Part shown: one piece after another, positions 7,278 through 31,410 of the stretch
How positions within the stretch are numbered: the stretch's first letter is position 1
How the letters are laid out: every line of letters starts with the position of its first letter
Source of the DNA: Streptomyces sp. NBC_00536
GTDB taxonomy: Bacteria > Actinomycetota > Actinomycetes > Streptomycetales > Streptomycetaceae
Assembly (NCBI RefSeq): GCF_036346295.1
Contig: NZ_CP107819.1
Location: forward strand, 1,116,001 to 1,180,000
Direction of reading: 5' to 3'
Length of the DNA: 64,000 nt
Notes under the pieces: model-generated
The model's input: the letters and a program-made list of their open reading frames with translations, nothing else
Told to the model about the DNA's origin: nothing
Databases searched by the model: none
Position numbers and translations under genes: made by a program

Positions 7278-8732
7278 TCAGGCCTTCTGCCGGCACAGGA
7301 TCCGGTCGAGGACGTCCCGCAGGTGCTGCGTGCTGGTCTCCACGGCATGCCGTGTGGTGGCCGTACGCCAGCCGACGAACCCGTCCGGGCGGACGAGCAC
7401 GGCGCCGTCCTCCTTGATGCCGGCGGCTTCGGCCCACCCTTCGACCGCGTGCGCCGCGATGCCCAGGTCCCGTGCCGCGTCCAGCCAGTGGTCGGCCGCG
7501 GTCCCGGTGATCAGCGTGAATCCGTCGACGAGGTCGACCGTGGACCGTCCGTCCGGAAGCCACCGGTGCGGCAGGCGGCTGCCCGGGGCGCCGTCCAGGA
7601 CGAGGTTCTCCATGTCGGAGAGCGGCTCCGGGTCGACCACCGCGCCGGAGTCGTACCGGTAGCCGATCACGGGGATCATGATGCCCGCCATGCCCACGGC
7701 CGCCCGGTCGGCAGCCCGGCTCGCGTCGTTGTCCCAGTGCAGGTCACGGTTCTCGGCGCGGAGCACGGTCTGCCGCATGGTGAACAGCGCGACCGGCCGG
7801 CGCTCGGCCTCGTAGGTGTCGAGCAGGGTGTCACCGCCGGCGGCCAGTTTCCACGCCAGGTTGTGGCCGTCGGCGATACCCACGTTGAGTCCGAGACCCC
7901 CGACCGGCGGCACCACGTGGGCCGCATCACCCACGAGGAAGACGTTGCCCTGCCGGAAGCGGTCGGCGACCCGCGCCGTCGACGACCAGGGCAGCAGGCT
8001 GATGATCTCCGGCTCGATGTCGCTGACGCCGGTGGCGTCCCTGATCTGCTGCTGGATCCGCTCGACGGGGGTCTGCGGGTCACCGTTCGGGATGTGGAAG
8101 ACCCAGCGGGCGGTCTCGTCGACCTTCAGCAGGATCCCGGACGCCCGCTCGTTGCGCAGGAACGTCATGGACGTCGGCGGGGTGGGCAGTTCCGCGCGGA
8201 ACAGCACGTTGAGCATGTGCGAACTGCTCAGCGGTCCCGGGCCGGTCACGCCGATGCCGAGCAGGTCACGCATCCGGCTGCGGACTCCGTCGGCGGCGAT
8301 CACGTAGTCCGCCGTGACGGTCCTGCCGTCCGCGGTGGTGACGCCGCCGTCCGTCACCGCGACCACCTCGCTGTCGAAGTCCACCTGGCCGCCGAACTCC
8401 CGCAGCCGTGCCAGCGCGGCCCGGTCGACCCGGTCCTGCGGGCAGCTTCCCAGCTTCGCCGGGCCGATCTCCGGCGGCTCGAACTTGGCCGTGACGGTGG
8501 TCAGATCGGCCAGGCTCGTGCCCGTCATGAGGCCCCGGACGAGATGGTCCGTCTCGATGTCGATGCCGGCCTCCCGGAGGATCTCCGCCGACCGGTCCGT
8601 GATGCCAAAGGCCCGCGGATGGTCGTTGAGCTGTGCCCGGCGCTCCAGCACATGGACCGAGACACCCTGACGGGCGAGGAAGACGGCGGTGCACAACCCG
8701 ACCGTGCCGCCTCCGACGATCACTACGCGCAT
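7278..8732 (-). CDS. FAD-dependent aromatic polyketide monooxygenase
   Basis: A 484-aa class A flavoprotein hydroxylase of the PHBH/PgaE type. The N-terminal dinucleotide motif is VVIVGGGTVGLCTAVFLA (residues 3-20) and the second FAD motif is VFLVGDAAHVVPPVGGLGLN with the ribityl-binding GD. It should use NADPH and O2 to hydroxylate an aromatic ring or perform a Baeyer-Villiger-like step. Length matches anthracycline and angucycline hydroxylases, which have a C-terminal thioredoxin-like domain. It is encoded in a leftward run below the ABC exporter genes. ATG at 8732 directly precedes the FAD motif. The family is certain, the substrate is inferred. Confidence 0.92.
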   Translation of the reverse strand: MRVVIVGGGTVGLCTAVFLARQGVSVHVLERRAQLNDHPRAFGITDRSAEILREAGIDIETDHLVRGLMTGTSLADLTTVTAKFEPPEIGPAKLGSCPQDRVDRAALARLREFGGQVDFDSEVVAVTDGGVTTADGRTVTADYVIAADGVRSRMRDLLGIGVTGPGPLSSSHMLNVLFRAELPTPPTSMTFLRNERASGILLKVDETARWVFHIPNGDPQTPVERIQQQIRDATGVSDIEPEIISLLPWSSTARVADRFRQGNVFLVGDAAHVVPPVGGLGLNVGIADGHNLAWKLAAGGDTLLDTYEAERRPVALFTMRQTVLRAENRDLHWDNDASRAADRAAVGMAGIMIPVIGYRYDSGAVVDPEPLSDMENLVLDGAPGSRLPHRWLPDGRSTVDLVDGFTLITGTAADHWLDAARDLGIAAHAVEGWAEAAGIKEDGAVLVRPDGFVGWRTATTRHAVETSTQHLRDVLDRILCRQKA

Positions 8733-8849
8733 GCTTGTCCCTCCGAGAATGAGAACGGTGTTTCCTCACGGGTACGTCGCACCCGTGGCGGTACTGGAGA
8801 CGCCTCCGCTCACCCGTCGCGTCCCCGGGCGGGAGACGCGCGTACGGAT

Positions 8850-9635
8850 CTAGAGTCCGGCGCGGGCGAAGCGGCGCACCGAGAGCGGCACGAAGATCAG
8901 CAATAGCAGGCCGGCCCACAGCAGGCTCGCGGTCACCGGGTGGGTCAGCGGCCACGCGGCGTCCGGCCCGGGAGCACCGGGGTTACCGAAGAGCTCGCGC
9001 GCGGCGGCCGCGGCGGAGCTGAGCGGGTTCCACTCGCACAGCGCCCGGAGGCCGACCGGCATCCGGTCGGTGGGCACGAGGGCGTTGGACACCATGGTGA
9101 GCGACAGCGTGAGCGGTGCCAGCCGAGCCGCGGTCCGTGCCGAACGCACCACAAGGCCCAGGTAGGTGCCGACCCACGCCAGCGTGCAGCGGAACAGCAG
9201 GAGCAGGCCGATGCCGGCCAGCGCCCGCGGAACGCCGTCGTGCGGCCGCCAGCCGACGACGAGACCGCACACCATCAGGACCGCGAGGCCGTAGGCCCCG
9301 AGGATCCCCTCGGCGCCGCTCTGGCCGAGCGGCACGGACACCCGGTGGATCGGAAGCGAACGCAGGCGCTCCATCACCCCGCGCGCCTGGTCCGTCGCCA
9401 CCTCCGCCATGGCGGTGGACAGGGCGGTCCCGGTCGTCATCACGAACAGGCCGGGCATCATGAACTCGCGGTAGTTCGAGGTGCCCGGCACCCCGATCGC
9501 GCCGCCGAACACGAAGCCGAACAGCACCACGAACACGCTCGGCATCATCAGCATGGTGAGCAGGATGGAGGGCTCGTGGCGCAGCCGGAACAGCCTTCGC
9601 TGGGTCAGCGTCCAGCCGTCGGCCAGGAGGTTCAC
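8850..9635 (-). CDS. ABC-2 type exporter permease (DrrB-like)
   Basis: This 261-aa protein is strongly hydrophobic, with about six membrane segments in the ABC-2 pattern (LLTMLMMPSVFVVLFGFVFG; VMTTGTALSTAM; AYGLAVLMVCGLVVGW; LLLLFRCTLAWVG; a C-terminal LLWAGLLLLIFVPLSV). The conserved cytoplasmic RGVMERLRSLP of DrrB-like permeases is present. It should pair with the ATPase encoded just before it, with which it overlaps by 4 bases (ATGA), to export the polyketide and confer self-resistance. Expression is probably controlled by the divergent TetR gene at 10691. Confidence 0.9.
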   Translation of the reverse strand: MNLLADGWTLTQRRLFRLRHEPSILLTMLMMPSVFVVLFGFVFGGAIGVPGTSNYREFMMPGLFVMTTGTALSTAMAEVATDQARGVMERLRSLPIHRVSVPLGQSGAEGILGAYGLAVLMVCGLVVGWRPHDGVPRALAGIGLLLLFRCTLAWVGTYLGLVVRSARTAARLAPLTLSLTMVSNALVPTDRMPVGLRALCEWNPLSSAAAAARELFGNPGAPGPDAAWPLTHPVTASLLWAGLLLLIFVPLSVRRFARAGL

Positions 9636-10603
9636 GACACCGCCTCGGGCGTCTCGACCGGTTGCGCCGGTTCGACGGTCTGCCCGGTCATCGTCAGGAA
9701 GACGTCGTCCAGGCCGGGCTCGCGGATCCCGATGTGCCTGATCACCGCGCCGGACGCGTCCAGTTCACTCACGATCAGCGGTAGGGCGGGCGCCTGATCC
9801 ACCGCGGCCACGACGATGCGCGATCCGTCGGCCTCCGGGCACCGGCCGGTCAGCCGCTCCAGCCTCGCCATGGCACTCGGCACATGGTCCGCCGACTCGA
9901 CCACGACGTCGATGTGACGGCCGATCTGGGCTTTGAGCTGGGCCGGGCTGCCTTCGGCGATCAGCTGGCCGCGGTCGATCACGCCGACCGCCGTGGCGAG
10001 CCGCTCCACCTCCTCGAGACACGGGGTGGTGAGCAGGACCGTGGTGCCGTCAGCCACCAGTCTCCGCACGCTCTCCCAGATCTCGGCGCGACTGGGGGCG
10101 TCGAGCCCGGTGGTCGGCTCGTCGAGGAAGAGCACCGCGGGAGCCCGTAACAGACTGGCGATCAGGTGGATCCGGCGGCGCATGCCATCGGAGTACGTGC
10201 CGACCAGCCGATCAGCGGCGTGGGCGAGACCGAACCGTTCCAGCAGCTCGTCGGCGCGCCGGCGGGCGCCGCGCGAGCCGAGCCGCGAGAGGCGGCCGAG
10301 GATCCGCAGGTTCTCCCGGCCGGTCAGTCCGTCGTCGAACGAGGCGTCCTGACCCGCCAGGCCGATCACCTTCCGCACATCAGCCGGATTCCGGGCCACG
10401 TCGAAGCCGGCGACGACGGCCCGCCCGCTGCTGGGCCTGGTCAGGGTGGTCAGGATCCGCACGGTGGTGGTCTTCCCCGCGCCCTTCGGGCCGAGCAGGC
10501 CGTAGACGGTGTGCGATGGCACCACGAGGTCCAGGCCGTCCAGCGCGACGACGTCCCCGTACTGCTTCCTCACATCCTCGGTGTACATGATCGCGTCTTC
10601 CAT
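9632..10603 (-). CDS. ABC exporter ATPase (DrrA-like) with altered signature motif
   Basis: A 323-aa DrrA-type nucleotide-binding protein: Walker A GPKGAGKTTT (usual Asn is Lys), Walker B AVLFLDEPTTGLD, and a C-terminal DrrA domain ending GLDDVFLTMTG. The signature reads TYSDGMRRR where family members have YSGGMRRR, so an Asp replaces a Gly that contacts ATP, and the switch region is LLTTPCLEE where QYLEE is usual. These changes may weaken ATP use or simply be tolerated. With the permease it likely pumps the cluster product out. The first gene of its operon, it lies 87 bp from the divergent TetR gene across a repeat-containing operator region. Confidence 0.9.
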   Translation of the reverse strand: MEDAIMYTEDVRKQYGDVVALDGLDLVVPSHTVYGLLGPKGAGKTTTVRILTTLTRPSSGRAVVAGFDVARNPADVRKVIGLAGQDASFDDGLTGRENLRILGRLSRLGSRGARRRADELLERFGLAHAADRLVGTYSDGMRRRIHLIASLLRAPAVLFLDEPTTGLDAPSRAEIWESVRRLVADGTTVLLTTPCLEEVERLATAVGVIDRGQLIAEGSPAQLKAQIGRHIDVVVESADHVPSAMARLERLTGRCPEADGSRIVVAAVDQAPALPLIVSELDASGAVIRHIGIREPGLDDVFLTMTGQTVEPAQPVETPEAVS

Positions 10604-19254: not shown

Positions 19255-19715
19255 CCTTGAAATAAGATCTATCAAAAACATGTGAATGGAAACCCCAGGT
19301 CAAAGGCTCGTGTAGCGCAATTCGGACAGGCTGCCGGTGTGCGTTACGTGCAGAGTGTGCGGCATGCGCAGTGGCCTGACGCTTCTTACCCGCCCGAGCA
19401 CCGCGGCGACGGCTCCCGACGCCACTCGCCCCCGCGCCTTCCTGGCCCTGATCGTCCAGATCGCGGATCGGCCGCGTTGTCGTAACCGTGCGTGAGGCAG
19501 TCGCGCGACCGGCCAGGCGGGTTGACTTCACCGGGCGCGGGCGCGGACAACAACGACACGGGGACGACCCGATGTTGCCTTGTGCAAGTCCCATCGCCGA
19601 CCTGCCGAGAGTCCCTGCCTGCATGTGCGTACGACCGGTAGATCACCCAGCGGCTGGGCCTCGCCGGACGGGATGGCGCCGAGGTCGGTGCCAGGACGCA
19701 CCAGCGCATGGGTTG

Positions 19716-20261
19716 CATGGGTGGGAGTACTACTTCGCGTCCCAGGCCCACGAGGCCATCCTCCAGGCCCGCCGTGGTATCGCCGGTACTGCTCTGACGG
19801 TGTCCATGGGCGAGCGGGCCGCCGGCATCGATGTCCCCGCAACAGCGTTTCACAGTCCCCAACTGCGCATCATGCGGGAGCTGGCGGTGGACGTCCCGCT
19901 GATGTGCAACGACGTGTACTCGCTGGAGAAGGAGGAGGCTCGCGGCGACGTCGACAACCTCGTCCTGTTCCTCGAAAACGACCGGCAGGTGTCCCGGCAG
20001 GCAGCGGTGGCCACTGCCGGGGAGGAAGTGCACCGGCGCTGCGCCCGTTTCCAGGAGCTGGCCGGCCAGGTGCCGGCCGTGTGCGACCAGCTCGGCCTCA
20101 CCTCCTGGGAGCGGGTCGCGGCAGACACGTACGTCGAGGTGATGACCGCCTGGATGAGCGGCTACAGCGCCTGGCAGAGCCAGACCCTGCGCTACACCAG
20201 CGCCCCCGAGGTGGTACCGAGTTCGGGCCCCGGCTACTTCGAAAACGTCCTCGGAGCGTAA
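19716..20261 (+). pseudogene. 5'-truncated terpene synthase
   Basis: About 180 codons match the C-terminal half of class I bacterial terpene cyclases: [15 protein letters not shown], the metal-binding NSE/DTE-type motif [23 protein letters not shown], and a final helix with [17 protein letters not shown]. The N-terminal half with the DDxxD motif is missing. Upstream sequence from 19488 is open in frame but unrelated. It cannot make a functional cyclase and is probably a relic cut by rearrangement at the island edge. The stretch 19255-19715 holds nothing else recognised. Confidence 0.8.
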
Positions 20262-20500
20262 GCGCTCCGGCGGCGCCCGGGTGAGGCTCCCGGGCTGGCT
20301 TCGACCCCTTTCTCTTCGTAGGAGCGACGATGGGCGTGGCCCACGTCGGGGCCGCACTCCACCGCATACGACGACGGGTTCGCGCCCGTGGCTGGGCCAA
20401 CGGCACCTTCCTGAGTTCGTCAGCGGAGTGCAGCGGCCCTCCACCGGCCTGTGGGCTGGTGAAGGGCCGCGCTTACCGGGGACGCGAGGTCACCGGGCGG

Positions 20501-22174
20501 TCAGGGGCAGGTGACCAGGACGATGGAGAGGACGGTGCAGGTCGCGCTCGCGGCGTCGTTGGCGGGGTTGGGGTCGGTGGGTGCGGAGGTGGTGCGCAGG
20601 CCGGTGACCGTGACCGGGCCCAGGGTCAGCAGGTGCAGCGGGACGCGGAACGTCTTGTTCACGCTCGTACCGTTGGGGATGGCGCCGTAGGTACAGGTGA
20701 CGGTGGTGGCGGCAGTGGTGCAGCCGGCGGACAGGTTGGTGGCGGAGGCGCCTGGCGGCAGGGTGGCGGTCAGGGTCGCGGAGGCGACGGCGCCGGGGCC
20801 GGTGTTGTGGGCGGTCAGGGTGTAGGTCAGGTAGGGCACCAGGATGCCCAGGTGCGGCTGTGCGCTCAGGTCGACATCGAGGTCGGCGGGCGGCGCCAGG
20901 TAGGTGTACTGGTCGGCTGCTGTGACGGCGCTGGTACCGCCCGGGGTGATGACGCGCACATCAACGGTCCCGGCCGGGTGGGCGGGGGCGGTGGCGGTGC
21001 AGGAGGTCGCAGTGCAGGTGATGCCGGTGGCGGCCGTGCCGCCGAAGGTGACCGCCGTGGCCCCGGTCAGGTTCGTGCCGGTGATCGTGACGGGGGTGCC
21101 GCCTGCGGTCGGGCCGGAGGCCGGGCTGACCGATGTCACCGTCGGGGCCGGCGGCAGCGGGGCGGGGCCGAACGCGATCCCGTAGGGCTGGTTGAAGCCG
21201 GGAAGGGTCGTGGTGACGGTGTTGGTGGCGGTGTCGATGACCGACACCGTGTCGTTGCCGAGGTTGCTGGTGTAGGCGGTGGCGCCGTCCAGGGAGAACG
21301 CCAGGTTCTGCGGGTAGCTGCCGACGGCGATGGTGGCGGCAGTGGTGTTGGTGGCGGTGTCGACGACCGTGACGGCGCCGCTGTTCTGGCTCACGACGTA
21401 CACCGCCGTGCCGGCCGGGTTGACGGCCAGATTCCAGGGTCCGTAAGCGACCGGGACGGTCGCGGTGATCGTGCCGGTGGCGGTGTTCACGACGGCCAGG
21501 GTGTTGTTGCCGTTGTTCGCGACGTAGGCCGTGGCGCCGTTGGGGCTGAATCCGACGTCGATCGGTCCGTTGAACCCGGTGAGGGTGGAGACCAGGGTGT
21601 TGGTGGCGGTGTCGAATATCTTCACGGTGTTGTCGCCGACATTGGAGACGTACAGGCGGGTGTCGTCCGGGCTGAGCGCCGGCCACCATGGGGTGCTCAG
21701 CCCGGTCAGCGTCGCGGTGACGGTGTTGGTGGCGGTGGCCACGACCGAGACCGTGCCGTCGTTCTGGTTGACGACGTACAGCCGCGAGCCGTCCGCGCTG
21801 ATCGTCAGCGGGTCCGGCCCGCCACCGACCGGGATCGTGGTCAGCACGCTGTTGCTGGTGGTGTCGATGACGGCCACGTCATTGTCGTTGATGCTCGTGA
21901 CGTAGGCCCGCGTGCCGTTCGGGGAGACCGCGATCGATTCGGGGTAGCCGGTCACCGGGATGGTGTTCAAGACCGCATGGGTCGCCGCGTCCAGCACCTT
22001 TACGTCCTGGCCGATGTGATCCACCACGTACAGCCGCTCCCCGGCGGCGGCCAGGGCCGGACCGGCCCCGGTCAGAGCCCCGCCCAGGCCCAGCATCATC
22101 ACCAGGGTCAGCACGGTGCACCGTGACCACCACCGCCCACGCGCAGAAGAACGCAACGTACCAGTTGCAACCAT
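20501..22174 (-). CDS. Secreted YVTN beta-propeller protein with TIG and DUF11-like domains
   Basis: 557 aa starting at ATG 22174 behind GAGGGGGA. A signal peptide (CTVLTLVMMLGLGGALTGAG, ending near LAAAG, residue about 41) is followed by seven repeats of about 42 aa of the type xxYVxN..D(G/N)TVxVxDTATNTVxxT, a seven-bladed propeller. Then come an IPT/TIG Ig-like domain (PTVTSVSPASGPTAGGTPVT) and a DUF11-like domain (LTYTLTAHNTGPGAVASATL). Such proteins are extracellular and bind partners or surfaces; no enzyme site is seen. It stands alone and reads towards the terpene relic, next to the profilin gene on the same strand with about 240 bp between. Confidence 0.85.
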   Translation of the reverse strand: MVATGTLRSSARGRWWSRCTVLTLVMMLGLGGALTGAGPALAAAGERLYVVDHIGQDVKVLDAATHAVLNTIPVTGYPESIAVSPNGTRAYVTSINDNDVAVIDTTSNSVLTTIPVGGGPDPLTISADGSRLYVVNQNDGTVSVVATATNTVTATLTGLSTPWWPALSPDDTRLYVSNVGDNTVKIFDTATNTLVSTLTGFNGPIDVGFSPNGATAYVANNGNNTLAVVNTATGTITATVPVAYGPWNLAVNPAGTAVYVVSQNSGAVTVVDTATNTTAATIAVGSYPQNLAFSLDGATAYTSNLGNDTVSVIDTATNTVTTTLPGFNQPYGIAFGPAPLPPAPTVTSVSPASGPTAGGTPVTITGTNLTGATAVTFGGTAATGITCTATSCTATAPAHPAGTVDVRVITPGGTSAVTAADQYTYLAPPADLDVDLSAQPHLGILVPYLTYTLTAHNTGPGAVASATLTATLPPGASATNLSAGCTTAATTVTCTYGAIPNGTSVNKTFRVPLHLLTLGPVTVTGLRTTSAPTDPNPANDAASATCTVLSIVLVTCP

Positions 22175-22411
22175 GACGAAATTCCCCCTCACGTGCCGCG
22201 ACACACCAGCGGGGCCGAAGGCCCCTGGGAACCGGTATGGACGCGATCCAGCCAGACGCCCCACTCCCCAGGCCCTGGAACGTCCCCACCCCGTCGCCAC
22301 GGGAACCCGAGGCGACGGCCGCACGAACCCGCCTGACGACCGGGCCTGACGCGTTCCTGAACCGATGAGGCACCCCGTCGCTGGGCTACAGGAGGTGCGA
22401 GGCTGCGACGG

Positions 22412-22795
22412 TCAGTAGCCGTTCTCGATCAGGTAGTCGGCGGTGACTTCCACACGGTTATAGGCTTCGCCAGGTATCTGGCCCGCGGTGTAGCAGCCGA
22501 TGACGATGGCCTGTCCGGTGTGGGCCAGCCCGACGCCAGCGGTGCTCCTCGCACCCCGGATGGACCGTTCGTCGCCCTTGTTGCCCTGGTACGTCACCCC
22601 GCAGACGGTGACGCCAGAGCTGAAGACCAGGGTGGGGTTCTTGTAGAGGGCGACGAGGGCCGCACCCTCGCCGGCCTTGAGGACGAGCGTGGGGGTGTTG
22701 GCCCAGACCGCCCCGTCCGCGGCGCTGATGATGGCTGCTCCCCGTACCTTGCCGGACGCTACGAGGTCATCGACGAGCGTTTGCCAGGAGGACAT
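22412..22795 (-). CDS. Profilin homologue
   Basis: A 127-aa protein of profilin length. It begins MSSWQTLVDDLVASGKV and has AAIIS..DGAVWA, CGVTYQG, ERSIRGARSTAGVGLAHTGQ, AIVIGCYTAGQIPG and a final VEVTADYLIENGY. These follow the order of eukaryotic profilins, in particular amoebal ones (MSWQxYVD, AAI.G.DG..WA, RSI.GKKG..G, TGQA, PG...VE...DYLI.QG). Profilin binds actin monomers, proline-rich peptides and phosphoinositides. ATG 22795 has GGAAAG upstream. Profilins are rare in bacteria; a case in the cyanobacterium Microcystis was ascribed to transfer from a eukaryote. No actin-like gene is in the window, so its partner here is unknown. Confidence 0.85.
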   Translation of the reverse strand: MSSWQTLVDDLVASGKVRGAAIISAADGAVWANTPTLVLKAGEGAALVALYKNPTLVFSSGVTVCGVTYQGNKGDERSIRGARSTAGVGLAHTGQAIVIGCYTAGQIPGEAYNRVEVTADYLIENGY

Positions 22796-22939
22796 GGCAT
22801 ACCTACTTTCCAGGGCAACGTCAGGAACCCTGGCCGCAGTTGGCCCGGTCTAGCGAAGTGTTCTGGACCGTGGGTGGGCAAAGTATGGAAATCAACTTGC
22901 GCGGCCGGAAACAGAGATTTGTTGGCCGGTCCGGCTTGA

Positions 22940-23170
22940 TCACGGGCACGGCGCCGCTCGGCCGGGCGGCAGTCGACGACAACCGCCGGATCGAAGTCCA
23001 GCAGCATCACCTGGTCCCGCTCCAGCCACGACTCGTATCCCACGCGACCGCCCGTCGTCGCCGACCACCACCGGGCCCGGCAGGTTGCGCTGCCGGCGGT
23101 AGGACGTGGAGGCGCGTACGGGAAGAGCGTGCTCGAACGGGACAGCCCAGGCAGCCGTCAAAATACCGGG
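22940..23170 (-). pseudogene. TnsA-like endonuclease fragment
   Basis: On the minus strand two frames together give a segment resembling actinobacterial TnsA-like proteins: TSYRRQRNLPG in one frame, then VGYESWLERDQVMLLDFDPA in another. TnsA proteins are the 5'-cleaving endonucleases of Tn7-like elements. Only the middle is left, with at least one frameshift, so it is non-functional. It sits between the profilin gene and the IS3 element. The remaining part of 22796-23184 shows nothing else. Confidence 0.5.
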
Positions 23171-23236
23171 TCTGCCGCACGATCGGGTGACATCTGATCT
23201 GGCTTGCCCTGTGGGGTAGGTGGGAAGGATGTCGCT

Positions 23237-23545
23237 GTGCCCAAGCCTTATCCGGAAGAGTTCCGTCAGGATGTCGTGCGGGTCGCGAGGAACCGCGGCC
23301 CGGGCGTGACGGTCGAGCAAGTGGCCGCCGACTTCGGAGTCCATGCGATGACGCTGTGGAAGTGGATGCGCCGGGCGGACATCGACGACGGGGCCAAGCC
23401 CGGAACAACCAGCCAGGAGAGCGCGGAGCTGCGCGAAGCGCGTCGGCGCATCAAGCTGCTGGAGCAGGAGAACGAGGTCTTGCGCCGGGCCGCGGCCTAC
23501 CTGTCCCAGGCGAACCTTCCGGGAAAAGGATCTACCCGCTCGTGA
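23237..23545 (+). CDS. IS3-family transposase orfA
   Basis: A 102-aa DNA-binding subunit from GTG 23237. It carries a helix-turn-helix (VTVEQVAADFGVHAMTLWKW) and a leucine-zipper coil (ELREARRRIKLLEQENEVLR), the classic OrfA layout. Near the end, a GGGAAAAGG stretch around 23520 could support a -1 ribosomal slip into the orfB frame, producing the OrfAB transposase. It binds the element's ends and regulates transposition. Confidence 0.88.
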   Translation: MPKPYPEEFRQDVVRVARNRGPGVTVEQVAADFGVHAMTLWKWMRRADIDDGAKPGTTSQESAELREARRRIKLLEQENEVLRRAAAYLSQANLPGKGSTRS

Positions 23546-24399
23546 AAGAGCTGGCCGTGGACGGGGTGCCCGTCACGGTGACGTGCCGGGTCCTCAAGCT
23601 CGCCAGAGCGCCCTACTACCGGTGGCTGGAGCGGCCGGTGACCGATGCCGAGGTCGAGCGGGCCGCTCGCGCGAACGCGTTGTTCGACGCCCACCGTGAG
23701 GACCCGGAGTTCGGCTACCGCTTCCTGGCCGACGAGGCCCGCCGCGCGGGATCCGGCATGGCCGACCGGACCGCGTGGCGGATCTGCCGGGACAACCGCT
23801 GGTGGAGCGTGTTCGGCAAGAAGCGTGGCAGGAACAAGAAGGCCGGCCCACCGGTGCACGACGATCTCGTTCGCCGCGACTTCACCGCGACCGGCCCGAA
23901 CCGGCTGTGGCTCACCGACATCACCGAACACACCACCGGCGAGGGGAAGCTGTATCTCTGCGCGATCAAGGACGTCTTCAGCAAGCGGATCGTGGGCTAC
24001 TCCATCGACACGCGCATGAAGTCCCGCCTGGCCGTCGCCGCCCTGGACAACGCCGTGGCCCGGCGTGAACACGTCGCCGGATGCATCCTGCACAGCGACC
24101 GCGGATCGCAGTTCCGGTCCCGGAAATTCGTCCGGGCGCTCGACCGGCACCGCATGGCCGGATCGATAGGGAGGGTCGGGGCGGCCGGCGACAACGCGGC
24201 CATGGAGTCCTTCTTCAGCCTGCTGCAGAAGAACGTCCTCGACCGCCGGACGTGGACCACCCACCAGGAACTGCGGATCGCGATCGTCACCTGGATCGAG
24301 AGGACCTACCACCGCCGCCGCAGACAAGCCGCACTCGGCCGGCTGACCCCCGTCGAATTCGAGACCGTCATGACGACACCGGCCCTCCAGGCCGCGTAA
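23542..24399 (+). CDS. IS3-family transposase orfB (DDE integrase domain)
   Basis: 285 aa from GTG 23542; its frame is -1 relative to orfA and open further upstream to allow the OrfAB fusion. It has the HTH_21-like region (AHREDPEFGYRFLADEARR) and the rve integrase core with the triad: Asp in LWLTDITEH, Asp in CILHSDRGSQF, Glu in NAAMESFFSLLQ. It ends with YHRRRRQAALGRLTPVEFE, typical of the family. All catalytic residues are present. Confidence 0.93.
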   Translation: MKELAVDGVPVTVTCRVLKLARAPYYRWLERPVTDAEVERAARANALFDAHREDPEFGYRFLADEARRAGSGMADRTAWRICRDNRWWSVFGKKRGRNKKAGPPVHDDLVRRDFTATGPNRLWLTDITEHTTGEGKLYLCAIKDVFSKRIVGYSIDTRMKSRLAVAALDNAVARREHVAGCILHSDRGSQFRSRKFVRALDRHRMAGSIGRVGAAGDNAAMESFFSLLQKNVLDRRTWTTHQELRIAIVTWIERTYHRRRRQAALGRLTPVEFETVMTTPALQAA

Positions 24400-24626
24400 C
24401 CGAACCTGTCACCCAAACCTGCATCAGACCCACCGGCCCCACACACTCGACGGCTTCATAGCCGGCACCAGCCTCACCTTCGACAACCCAGCCTCACCCT
24501 GAAGCGCCGAAGTCAGTAACGGCGGTCGCGCCCGGAGCTGTACCTATCGGCGCCGCTCAGGTCGAGCGCCCGCCTCGATCACCGCGGATCTCGTGCCCCG
24601 GCGCTTGCTTGATCGTTGACTTCTCC

Positions 24627-27438: not shown

Positions 27439-28149
27439 TCAACACGCCGGTTTGATCTTGGATTTGTCGGTGTCGAGGAACCTGGCGACGTCTTCCGGTG
27501 TGTGGAAACGGGCTGTTGAGGCGGTGGGGTGAACATCATGGGCTTCCAGGAGCGGGCGGACGTCTTTCGCTGCGCGGCTGATGGTCATGGCGGTGGTATT
27601 GAAGAGCTGGCCCAGGAGGTCCATGGGCGCGAGTTTTCGCAGGTGGAGCACGGTGGCCAGGACCCGGTCAGCTGAGGTGAGCTTGGCTTTGGCACCTGCG
27701 CCAGGGGCGACCCTGCGCTCGTGGCCTCGACGCGCACGGAGTACTTGCTCACGCTGAAGCTCCATCTCTGGAATCAACGCGTCGATGACTTCACTGAGTT
27801 GCCGGCGGGTCATTCCGGTCAGTTCCGGGTCCTGGAGTGCATGCCGCGTGAGGTGAGTCGGTCGGTCCGCCAGGGCCTCGTCCGGTGTGGTGCCGTTGGC
27901 CGCCGCGTCCACCGGCTGGGAGTGGAGGGTGTAGTTCCAGTCGCCGTGGAAGCGATGGCGGGTGATGGGCAGGGCAGCGATCTCGTCGTCGCTGATGCGG
28001 ATGCCGGTGGGGTACTCGCCACTGTCGAGTTCAGCCTGGACGGTGAGGCCGGTCCGGCTGGTGGTTGCGGCGATGGTCTGAATCATGACTTCGTGGCTGG
28101 TCAGGGGCCTGCCTCGCCAGTTCATGGTGATGTGGGAGAACAGTCTGTG
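27439..28149 (-). CDS. ISAzo13-like transposase, 3' exon
   Basis: 237 codons including stop. The exon begins at CAC AGA CTG (HRLFSHITMNWRGRPLTSHE) and continues through QTIAATTSRTGLTVQAELDS and LPITRHRFHGDWNYTL, all typical of the ISAzo13 C-terminal half, then an extra C-terminal region with helix-turn-helix character (LLGQLFNTTAMTISRAAKDV). Joined to the 5' exon after splicing it would give a continuous protein of about 559 aa. Unspliced, this part has no start of its own; upstream in-frame codons are intron sequence. Confidence 0.8.
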   Translation of the reverse strand, partial: HRLFSHITMNWRGRPLTSHEVMIQTIAATTSRTGLTVQAELDSGEYPTGIRISDDEIAALPITRHRFHGDWNYTLHSQPVDAAANGTTPDEALADRPTHLTRHALQDPELTGMTRRQLSEVIDALIPEMELQREQVLRARRGHERRVAPGAGAKAKLTSADRVLATVLHLRKLAPMDLLGQLFNTTAMTISRAAKDVRPLLEAHDVHPTASTARFHTPEDVARFLDTDKSKIKPAC

Positions 28150-28211
28150 GTGAAGTAGGCCCGAAGCGCGGTCTCGTCTTTCGAGCGAGCCGTTTCTTCG
28201 GGCCTCTTCCC

Positions 28212-28247
28212 GCACCCGGCGTGCCACTCTCATGGCACCGGGCGCTC
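28212..28247 (-). ncRNA. Group II intron domain V hairpin
   Basis: On the minus strand this reads GAGCGCCCGGTGCC, a loop, then GGCACGCCGGGTGC. It is a 34-36 nt hairpin with the AGC catalytic triad at its base, as in group II domain V. It is followed by a domain VI-like stem (AGGCCCGAAG paired with CTTCGGGCCT) with an A near the 3' splice site that could be the branch point. Confidence 0.7.
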
Positions 28248-28279
28248 CACAAGTCCCGTCTCACTGCCCCTGTTGATCT

Positions 28280-29710
28280 TCATCCGATGGTCGGCCAGGG
28301 GGAAGGGATGACCGTTCCCCGGTATCGGTAGCGCGTCGTGCGTACCTTGCCGGGATCGAACAGTGTCCGTTCCTCCCCTGCCGGCCACCATCCCCCGCCG
28401 CAGTAAAGACGGCGGAGATCCTTCCTGTTGATCCGGAGGTGTTTGCGACGCAGCCACTTCATGACCTGGCTCCACGTGTACGAGCTCAGGTACTGGAAGG
28501 TCGCGCTGGACACCCCGGGGCGGAAGTACATGCACCAGCCGAACAGCATCCGGTTGATCTGGATGAGCAGTTCGTCCAGTGGCAGGCCGGTGGCCGTTCT
28601 GCGGCGTACCGCCTTGACCTTGCCCATCGCGGCCGTCAGGGCCTTGCGCGAGGGGTAGGTGTAGACGTAGCTGCGACTGGAACCTCGTTTGCGGTGGCGC
28701 TGGATGCGCCACCCGAGGAAGTCCAGTCCCTCGTCGATGTGGGTGATCAGGGTCTTCTCCACGGACAGGCGCAAGCCCATCGTGGACAATACCTCCGCGA
28801 TCTCCTCGCGCAGAGACTCGGCGTCGTCCTTGGTGCCCTTGATCATTAGGCACCAGTCGTCCGCGTACCGGGTCAGCCGGTAGTTGGGGAGACCTTGACG
28901 AAGCCGCTTGGTCCGCGCCCAAGGCGTGGACCTCGGGCCTCCCGGAGACTGGGCGATGTGCTCGTCCAGGACCGACAGCGCCACGTTGCTCATCAACGGC
29001 GAGAGAATCGAACCCTGTGGGGTACCGGCGGTGGTCTCTCGAAGTACACGGTCCTCACCGAGGATGCCCGACTTCAAGAATGCCTTCACCAAGATCAGGA
29101 CACGTTTGTCTCCGACGCGCTTGCGCACCCGGTCCATCAGAGCGGAGTGTGAAATCTCGTCGAAGCAGGCCTTGATGTCGCCCTCCACGATCCACTCATA
29201 CGACTTGGACGTGAAGAACCGCACCTCGGCCACCGCGTCATGAGCCCGGCGGTTCGGACGGAACCCGTAGGAACACGGCAGGAAATCCGCCTCGAAAATT
29301 GGCTCCAGCACCAGCTTCAAGGATGCCTGCACCACCCGGTCCGCGATCGTGGCGATCCCCAGACGGCGCAACTTGCCGCCCGCCTTGGGGATCATCCGCT
29401 CCCGCACCGGCAGCGGACGGAAACTACGGTTCTTGATGCTCTCCCGCAGTCTGCCGAGGAACTCCTCGACGCCCGTCCGCTCCGCGATGGACGCCGCGGT
29501 GCGGCCATCCACCCCGGCGGTCTTCGCACCCTTGTTACCCCGCACCTGATCCCACGCGACCAGCAGGAACGCGGGATCGGCACAGAGGTTGAACAGGTCA
29601 TCGAACCTGCGATGAGGATCATCGCGGGCCCAACGGTGCAGCTTGGTCTGGATCTCCAGTACCCGTCGCTCCGCCCCATAGGTGACGGCCTCAAGTTCGT
29701 CGGTATTCAC
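28280..29710 (-). CDS. Group II intron reverse transcriptase/maturase
   Basis: 476 aa from GTG 29710, chosen because AGGAGG lies about 9 bases upstream. RT blocks include AGVDGRTAA, IPKAGGKLRRLGI, CSYGFRPNRRAHDAV, GDIKACFDEISH, GTPQGSILSPLM and the catalytic YADDWCLM, followed by a maturase (X) domain with FLGWRIQRHR and LFGWCMYFRPG. No HNH endonuclease domain (Cys pairs) is present, so retrohoming would rely on other priming. It should bind and help splice its own intron RNA. Confidence 0.93.
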   Translation of the reverse strand: MNTDELEAVTYGAERRVLEIQTKLHRWARDDPHRRFDDLFNLCADPAFLLVAWDQVRGNKGAKTAGVDGRTAASIAERTGVEEFLGRLRESIKNRSFRPLPVRERMIPKAGGKLRRLGIATIADRVVQASLKLVLEPIFEADFLPCSYGFRPNRRAHDAVAEVRFFTSKSYEWIVEGDIKACFDEISHSALMDRVRKRVGDKRVLILVKAFLKSGILGEDRVLRETTAGTPQGSILSPLMSNVALSVLDEHIAQSPGGPRSTPWARTKRLRQGLPNYRLTRYADDWCLMIKGTKDDAESLREEIAEVLSTMGLRLSVEKTLITHIDEGLDFLGWRIQRHRKRGSSRSYVYTYPSRKALTAAMGKVKAVRRRTATGLPLDELLIQINRMLFGWCMYFRPGVSSATFQYLSSYTWSQVMKWLRRKHLRINRKDLRRLYCGGGWWPAGEERTLFDPGKVRTTRYRYRGTVIPSPWPTIG

Positions 29711-30310
29711 CGGCGAGAACCTCCTGGTCTTCCAGCACTTCGGCCACTGACTTACTGGCCCCCTTCGCCATGTACGCGCCATTAACGCGCTCGGACTACT
29801 ACGGGGCCTCCGCCACGTACTGGAGCCATCAGCCGACAACGGGCCTGCCCACCGGCTGACTGGATATCAGCCGGGAAGGGCGGTTCCAGCACGCTTCCCA
29901 CGTTCACCACTTACCGGTCGACGAGCGAGCCGCCCAGCTCTACCCCGACAGCATCGCCACGCCTACGCCGCAGGCATTCAACGTGGCCTCCTCACCAGCA
30001 TCGAAAGACCGGCTTCGAAGTCGCCGCCCGACAGGCGGCGTGCGCTGCACCCGGCCCATATCCTCCAGATTGGAGCCGGTGGAACACTTACGGGACGTCA
30101 GGCACTGGTTCCTCTCGTACGGCGTCTCGTCTTGCTTGCCGGACCCGCGCCGTCTGGAAGTACCGACGCGCTCCGTCGTTGTCAGGGCTGCTCCTACCTC
30201 CCCGTGCGTCTCCACGGATCGGCTGCCCTCAGCTTCACCGGACTGCTGCGACAGTCCGGCAGCAGGGGTCTTGCACCCCTGCCCGGTAACAGTGGCGCCT
30301 CGTGGCGCAC

Positions 30311-31279
30311 CTCGATCTTGTTCCACTTCGAGGTGCCGGGCGGAAGGTGGCACACGGTGATCTCAAGGCCGGTCTCGGCAGCGAGGTCGGCGAGGTGGGT
30401 CTTCCAGCCGCGGGTGCGGTAGCCGTTGGAGCCCCCGCCGTCGGCGGTGATCAGCAGCCGGCGGGCACGGGGGTAGTCGTGTCGGCCGCGGGCCTGCCAC
30501 CAGCGCCGGATCGAGGCGACAGCGAACGCCGCGGTGTCGTGATCGGTGCCGATGCTGACCCAGCCGGTGTTCGCTGTCATGTCGTAGATTCCGTACGGAA
30601 TCGCCTTCTCGGCCTGGCCGGGGAAGTCGTGGGTCTTGACCCTCACGGGCTGCCCTGCGGGCTGCCATTCGTGCCCGGCGTTCTTATAGTCGCCGATCAG
30701 TTCCTTCTTCTTGCTGTCCACGCTGATCACCGGGTCACCGGCGTCCCTGTGGTCTCGTGCCTGCTCGTTGAGGTAGCGGAACTGGGTGTCCCGGTCGGGG
30801 TGCTGAGCACCTTCGATGGTCTTGGCGTTGGCCTGCAGGCTGAAGCCTTCCTCCCGCAGCAGGCCGGCGACCGTGTCGGCGGAGACCCGATGGCCCTGCC
30901 GGGTCAGCTCCGCTGCCAGCTTCCGGGTCGACTTCGTCGTCCAGCGCAGCGGCGACATCGGATCACCCCGCTCGTCCGGCTCGACCAACCCAAGCAGAGC
31001 CGGCCGTAACCCCGGATCGAGGTCCGCTGCCCTCTTCCGGCCACCACCAGGTCGACGAATCCGCCCCAACGACGCCTGGCCAGACTCCAGTTCGGCCGCT
31101 CCGCGAGAGACCGTACCCTCCCGAACCCCGGCCGCCGCGGCGACGAGCCTGATCCCACCACGCCCCAGCGATAGCGCTTCCGCTCCTATGGCCAGCCGAC
31201 GCTGACGCTCATCGAGATGCGGCAACAACAACTGGAACTTCGCCGCCAGGACATCCTCGATCCCCTCTGGTCTCCCCAT
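30311..31279 (-). CDS. ISAzo13-like transposase, 5' exon
   Basis: 323 codons from ATG 31279 (MGRPEGIEDVLAAKFQLL). It includes an N-terminal HTH region (GGIRLVAAAAGVREGTVSRG), MSPLRWTTKSTRKLAAELTR, and two of the catalytic acids: Asp in VISVDSKKKE and Asp in LLITADGGGSNG. The exon ends TSKWNKIE, whose Glu is probably the third catalytic residue. The intron follows at once. If not spliced, the frame runs on 39 codons into the intron (VRHEAPLLPGRG to a stop) and would make a dead truncated protein. Confidence 0.85.
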
Positions 31280-31410
31280 ACCAGAACAACGAGTCCGACC
31301 GTTGGAAGCCACGACTTGTTTCCCGGCAAGCCCTTAAAGCTCATAACGCGATCACGGTGAGCGCGGCTGGTGAAGCGTGACCGGTACGACGATGCGGCCG
31401 CTCGTGATTC

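Follow-up and report, generated by a model that had tools for sequence, protein, structure and literature searches.

The window, a stretch of 64,000 nucleotides from Streptomyces sp. NBC_00536, carries a profilin gene on its minus strand, between a beta-propeller gene and the remains of mobile elements:

20501..22174, minus strand: beta-propeller gene (YNCE/YVTN repeats and a TIG domain), 3' of the profilin gene; domain matches.
22412..22795, minus strand: profilin gene, 127 aa, ATG at 22795 and TGA at 22412; PF00235, PDB, AlphaFold2 and Foldseek matches.
22806..22811, minus strand: Shine-Dalgarno-like GGAAAG, 10 nt before the ATG of the profilin gene, assigned by eye.
22959..23161, minus strand: remnant of a TnsA-like transposase subunit (actinobacterial), upstream of the profilin gene; NF033179 and DNA matches.
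About 23158..24434, plus strand: IS3-family element beside the TnsA remnant, with open reading frames at 23204-23545 and 23356-24399; HTH_Tnp_1 and rve matches.

The mobile-element setting proposed in the preliminary description is supported on the 5' side of the profilin gene, where the TnsA-like remnant and the IS3-family element lie. The remnant matches NF033179 over 21 residues (E 7e-07; 28.9 bits, cut-off 110), and its DNA is 73-87% identical to other Streptomyces genomes among the matches listed. The IS3 element is 89-91% identical to transposase DNA of Streptomyces plasmids (best 10 of 113 matching records); as all ten of these records match the IS3 element alone, a plasmid origin of the island was rejected. 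Carriage by phages or other viruses was rejected as well: tblastn of profilin against 50,697 phage records found nothing, and a scan of viral contigs with P0009 returned 12 pattern matches and 0 relatives. A search for the empty site, with the DNA from 20400 to 23200 against 199 genomes, gave matches at the TnsA remnant and at the propeller gene; of those listed, only the ones in the own genome cover the profilin gene.

With the Met at 22174 as its start, the propeller gene begins 237 bp beyond the profilin stop, and the N-terminus of its product resembles a signal peptide, as judged by eye. Propeller-like DNA is present in many of the 199 genomes of the genus, without profilin, and in a second copy in the own genome near 213 kb. 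The gene is therefore no evidence of function and is probably just a neighbour. Its pairing with profilin was seen at two loci only, the window and perhaps pRLB1-9.2, where the neighbour has a lectin-type profile match well below the cut-off and no PDB match; the association was set aside for this reason. No recurring adjacent partner gene was found at 11 profilin loci, with genes called by a crude script and compared by blastp. The window and the plasmid locus L021 share ABC-transporter-type and cold-shock-type genes several kb off, both of common kinds.

Two other features of the window are recorded here for themselves. The minus strand at 27439-31312 has two ISAzo13-like transposase parts, one at 30194-31312 that covers profile positions 2-233 and one at 27439-28233 that covers positions 231-307; the gene between them (28280-29839) is that of a reverse transcriptase/maturase of group II intron type, as if a group II intron had inserted into an ISAzo13-like element. 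At 19488-20261, on the plus strand, a terpene synthase family 2 match is confined to the C-terminal half of the domain (profile 102-197 of 199), so that the gene looks broken.

The window gene is a genuine, well-preserved profilin. Its product matches Pfam PF00235 over positions 1-127 of the 127 in the profile (E 2.3e-34; 118.7 bits, cut-off 25), which bears out the initial reading of it as a profilin homologue. The closest solved relative is Acanthamoeba profilin II (E 2.3e-20). In the AlphaFold2 model (pLDDT 96.5) the N- and C-terminal helices pack on one side of an antiparallel sheet, the arrangement of the profilin fold; Foldseek matches the model to 1acf with an E of 1e-13, and in structural alignment it lies 1.1-1.4 Å from amoeba and yeast profilins. 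The profilin pattern first read from the letters thus extends to the predicted structure, at 1.1-1.2 Å from the Acanthamoeba proteins. No curated NCBIfam model matched the window profilin, P0058 or P0023 at E 0.01, and inspection of the window sequence by eye revealed no recognisable export signal. The gene has a GC3 of 0.85, compared with 0.90-0.91 in the copies L009, L013 and L014, and resides in a contig of 8.66 Mb within a 9.15-Mb genome rated 100% complete.

We compared the two binding surfaces with those of other profilins. The six poly-proline residues, human W3, Y6, W31, H/Y133, L134 and Y139, were taken from Table 2 of PMC1964790. In each of the 18 eukaryotic rows compared, all six positions carry a residue of the expected type. 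The window protein keeps five of the six, namely W3, W31, a Tyr at 133, L134 and Y139 (W4, W31, Y121, L122 and Y127 in its own numbering), and has Leu in place of Y6; within its phylogenetic group, called group I below, the site varies. On the actin side we counted the basic residues R66, K80, K90 and K115 of Acanthamoeba, of which K115 cross-links to actin. Lys or Arg occupies these columns in 17, 18, 17 and 14 of the 18 eukaryotic rows, respectively, and the window protein has T, A, H and V there. It retains a basic residue at the columns of R71, R75 and K81 (Acanthamoeba numbering). At those of human K69, R74 and R88 it has T, K and A, and actin contacts vary even among eukaryotic short profilins. 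Judged from these columns, the window protein appears to have lost several conserved basic residues of its actin side.

Eukaryotic-type actin was not found in the nine carrier genomes searched with PF00022, all nine of which gave low-scoring matches only, of at most 47.8 bits in a single piece and at most 51.3 with pieces of one frame added. The best match in the own genome reaches 40.4 bits, so that the absence of a visible actin gene, first stated for the window, extends to the genome. A true actin would score far above these values; the matches are presumably MreB-like, and PF00022 is also matched in 6 of 14 control genomes.

Profilin genes are rare and scattered in the genus. A match to PF00235 is present in 8 of the 392 Streptomyces genomes sampled (about 2%, own genome included), in 6 of 383 of a second, overlapping draw (each at least 99% complete) that brought no new carriers, in 5 of 293 genomes of the order, in 1 of 396 across the phylum, which is the own genome, and in 0 of 14 control genomes; all draws together yield nine different carriers. 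Profilin was absent from all 60 further genomes of the 'relatives' draw, which is not a test of nearest kin since two centres gave identical other genomes. Plasmids, linear ones among the carriers, add three copies: one annotated as profilin on pRLB1-9.2; a profilin-type open reading frame without listed annotation at 6001-6363 of L027, from the Streptantibioticus cattleyicolor megaplasmid pSCATT, whose record has a single feature in its table; and a C-terminal profilin fragment on a plasmid of Streptomyces sp. NBC_00513. The plasmids gave no match to P0058, a query from the divergent group described below.

In a large protein set, the profile search found at least 55 proteins; apart from the own copy, 11 of these carry the name Streptomyces or Kitasatospora. 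A search with divergent sequences found at least 24, of which 17 are named Streptomyces; both counts are lower bounds, as just the 8000 candidates sharing most words were scored. Public records already call some of these Streptomyces proteins profilin. L014, a locus midway along a 9.08-Mb chromosome, perhaps holds an operon: its group III profilin gene (9748-10194) is followed after some 18 bp, on the same strand, by a gene of ATP-grasp/acyl-CoA ligase type (7412-9730).

Three maximum-likelihood trees (A, B and C), of 127 columns and with many open forks, place the window protein among mostly bacterial sequences, in a group nested within the eukaryotic profilins. Tree A contains 46 of the 55 proteins of the profile search, P0004, L009 and 20 of the 24 divergent proteins; it leaves out P0002 (the window's own protein, included as 'window'), P0007 and seven others, six of them of 112 aa or less. 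Relative to tree A, tree B drops P0052 and 12 divergent rows and adds L027 and two Acanthamoeba sequences, and tree C drops the divergent rows and six others and adds two Acanthamoeba sequences. The frame-split L019 and L020 and the fragment L028 are in no tree; the truncated P0031 is included.

Streptomyces profilins fall into four groups in these trees. Group I unites six Streptomycetaceae, namely the window, Kitasatospora P0003 and its near-copy L009, S. fuscigenes P0008, NBC_01497 P0024 and S. hundungensis P0047, with four metagenome rows (support 98/82 in trees A and B; 93/78, not starred, in tree C). Its nearest eukaryotic row is P0025 of EukProt, joined with supports of 94/94, 99/94 and 95/94 in trees A, B and C; in the set of tree A, moreover, no row has a higher identity to the window protein than P0025, at 56%. 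Group II consists of the plasmid copy P0031, S. tendae P0032 and the metagenome row P0018. It stands beside basidiomycete fungi, a join supported at 99/97 in tree B and 98/92 in tree C and not resolved in tree A. Group III holds P0020, P0023, P0033, P0035 and P0041, and group IV is a divergent family that forms one clade with 100/100 in trees A and B.

A single origin of the canonical Streptomyces rows is rejected by the AU test in tree B (p 0.0066 for 14 rows, 0.005 with the divergent rows), as is one of the Streptomyces rows in tree C (p 0.0014, 13 rows). In tree C, uniting groups I and II is rejected (p 0.027); uniting I with III (p 0.18) or II with III (p 0.44) is not, so that two captures are the safe minimum, and more than two are likely. 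The window gene appears to have come from a eukaryote, with an amoeba-like donor of short-profilin type, which supports the acquisition proposed in the preliminary description. Asgard archaea are not a likely source, since their profilins (5zza from Odin; 5yed, 5yee and 5zzb from Loki) have only 16-23% identity to the window protein in structural alignment, compared with 35-43% for those of amoeba and yeast. The preliminary description had also counted bacterial profilins as few; with 8 carriers in 392 Streptomyces genomes, at least two captures, plasmid copies and a divergent Streptomyces family, this needs correction.

Since its divergence, the window copy has changed in a way that avoids conserved profilin columns. 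Its terminal branch measures 0.52-0.64 changes per site in trees A-C. Compared with P0009, it is identical at 30 of 37 eukaryote-conserved columns vs 21 of 50 variable ones (p 0.00022), an excess to be expected if the gene is retained for its fold. Substitution rates within its group give no clear support for constraint: dN/dS is 0.40/0.73 between the window and L009 (ratio 0.55), 0.60/0.67 between the window and L013 (0.9) and 0.58/0.41 between L009 and L013 (1.4), ratios that run high because dS is itself high and depressed by common GC-rich third positions. An open frame alone proves little, as in simulations of neutral drift at 0.5 changes per site a frame of this length stays open in about 20% of cases. 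Besides the window, full-length open group I copies occur in five other streptomycetes (P0003, L009, P0008, P0024 and P0047). Several other Streptomyces copies are broken: the profilin sequence is spread over different frames in L019 and L020, from two further genomes, which are decayed copies or sequencing errors; L028 is a C-terminal fragment; and the plasmid copy L021 lacks its N-terminus. Capture and decay would thus recur.

The divergent group IV comprises at least 24 proteins (P0058-P0081). Trp at position 3 is found in 0 of 20 of its rows and Trp31 in 5 of 20. Its profile still finds Acanthamoeba profilin (1.3e-20), and a model of the group (pLDDT 87.2) has the canonical profilin order of elements. 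The group looks native to Streptomyces, with most of its poly-proline site lost. The signal of constraint is clearer in these genes (dN 0.28-0.43 over dS 0.87-1.32) than in the window's group. Near three of four divergent loci examined (L015-L018; 10 chosen genes) lies a gene of anti-sigma/phosphatase type: SpoIIE in L015 and L017, HATPase_c in L017 and STAS in L018. Such genes are frequent in Streptomyces, so this neighbourhood serves as a lead only.

The reading that we favour, with a probability of roughly 0.45, is that a captured eukaryotic profilin is kept in Streptomyces as a small cytosolic peptide-binding protein, a putative function. The gene would have entered from a eukaryote; with the need for actin binding gone, its actin side would have eroded. 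Proline-rich peptides may be bound in the groove between the two terminal helices, and the window gene, if functional, would persist through that groove. Binding such peptides there, the protein could work as a single-domain adaptor for bacterial proteins rich in proline. The retention of five of the six residues of the proline site is compatible with reuse for proline-rich ligands, one of the options in the preliminary description. Against this reading stand the lack of a recurring adjacent partner, the Tyr to Leu change in the proline site and the variation of that site within group I, the unsupportive dN/dS values, the rare and patchy carriage and the broken relatives, such as a gene of little use would leave.

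Several of these observations also speak for its main rival, a quite conceivable if tentative one, according to which Streptomyces occasionally takes up eukaryotic DNA and a small profilin gene then lasts for a time, selected weakly or not at all, before it decays. Carriage in only 8 of 392 genomes and in none of the 60 'relatives' genomes, the partnerless loci, the broken or cut copies L019, L020, L021 and L028, and dN/dS within group I (0.55, 0.9 and 1.4 for the pairs of three members) would all fit a passenger. It is opposed by the preferential retention of profilin-conserved columns over 0.52-0.64 changes per site and by the open, full-length group I copies in five other streptomycetes.

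An improbable alternative is a weapon or tool against eukaryotic neighbours, a protein that leaves the cell to bind the actin, proline-rich proteins or lipids of an amoeba, fungus or animal. Amoebae and fungi are among the nearest eukaryotic sequences, and profilin is a known binder of actin monomers, but the window protein shows no export signal by eye, several conserved basic residues of its actin side are replaced, and the neighbouring propeller is of a common type. Action on host actin, which the preliminary description had put forward, is on these grounds not supported. Regulation of the bacterium's own actin relative, MreB, is very improbable: actin-family matches, albeit low-scoring, do occur in all nine searched carriers, but 6 of 14 control genomes also match PF00022 where 0 of 14 match PF00235, and the actin side is eroded. 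An old, vertically inherited bacterial profilin, for which the divergent clade (100/100) could be mistaken, or an assembly contaminant are already disfavoured and scarcely credible, given that the own genome is the sole carrier among 396 across the phylum, that a single Streptomyces clade is rejected in trees B and C, that the gene sits in an 8.66-Mb contig with a high GC3, and that G208 and G385 carry profilin in genomes of 1 and 2 contigs.

The peptide-binding reading can be widened into a scenario that we offer tentatively, as conceivable rather than expected. Streptomyces may repeatedly capture profilins from different soil eukaryotes, with a protist-like donor for group I and a basidiomycete-like donor for another; one old capture might now be a native family near anti-sigma, SpoIIE and STAS genes, acting with no actin and with little left of the poly-proline site. 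The window gene would represent a middle stage, its actin side gone and its proline side kept. Profilin is usually taught as a partner of actin; bacteria that keep it without eukaryotic-type actin are a natural test of the fold alone and of which surfaces selection keeps. Multiple captures by one genus, with broken beside intact copies, also allow a eukaryote-to-bacterium transfer to be traced from the entry of a gene until it is lost or domesticated.

None of the open-licence matches listed had Streptomyces profilins as its topic, judging by title and opening of the abstract, which does not prove their absence in print. PMC10717218 ascribes a 'profilin-like fold' to a regulator, and 'profilin' as a whole word is absent from the main text of PMC7968930. 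Besides the Asgard profilins of solved structure, heimProfilin is described in PMC8410842, and a review of actin evolution mentions Asgard profilins (PMC12050087).

Of the known systems, the Acanthamoeba castellanii profilins (1f2k, 1prq, 1acf and 2acg) are like the window protein in length, in the order of elements, in most of the proline site and in structure-aligned identity (39-43% at 1.1-1.2 Å). They differ in having Tyr in the motif WQTYVD where the window has Leu, in a loop one residue shorter (GHDG instead of SAADG) and in the basic residues at R66, K80, K90 and K115. The poxvirus protein ECTV-PH (PMC1964790; 4qwo in our structural alignment) is likewise an acquired profilin that has kept the fold and lost actin-binding residues, but it is described as having lost five of the six proline-site residues, of which the window protein keeps five. 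The precedent in bacteria is PfnM of Microcystis aeruginosa PCC 7806, presented in PMC3254629 as a profilin from a eukaryote, on a genomic island, 84% identical to eukaryotic profilin, encoded beside the eukaryote-type actin ActM and, in 2012, the only known prokaryotic homologue. As described there, it shares with the window gene a eukaryote-to-bacterium transfer and a comparable setting, a genomic island for PfnM and mobile elements for the window gene; unlike PfnM, the window gene was found without a eukaryote-type actin, is much more divergent and belongs to a genus in which profilin was captured more than once.
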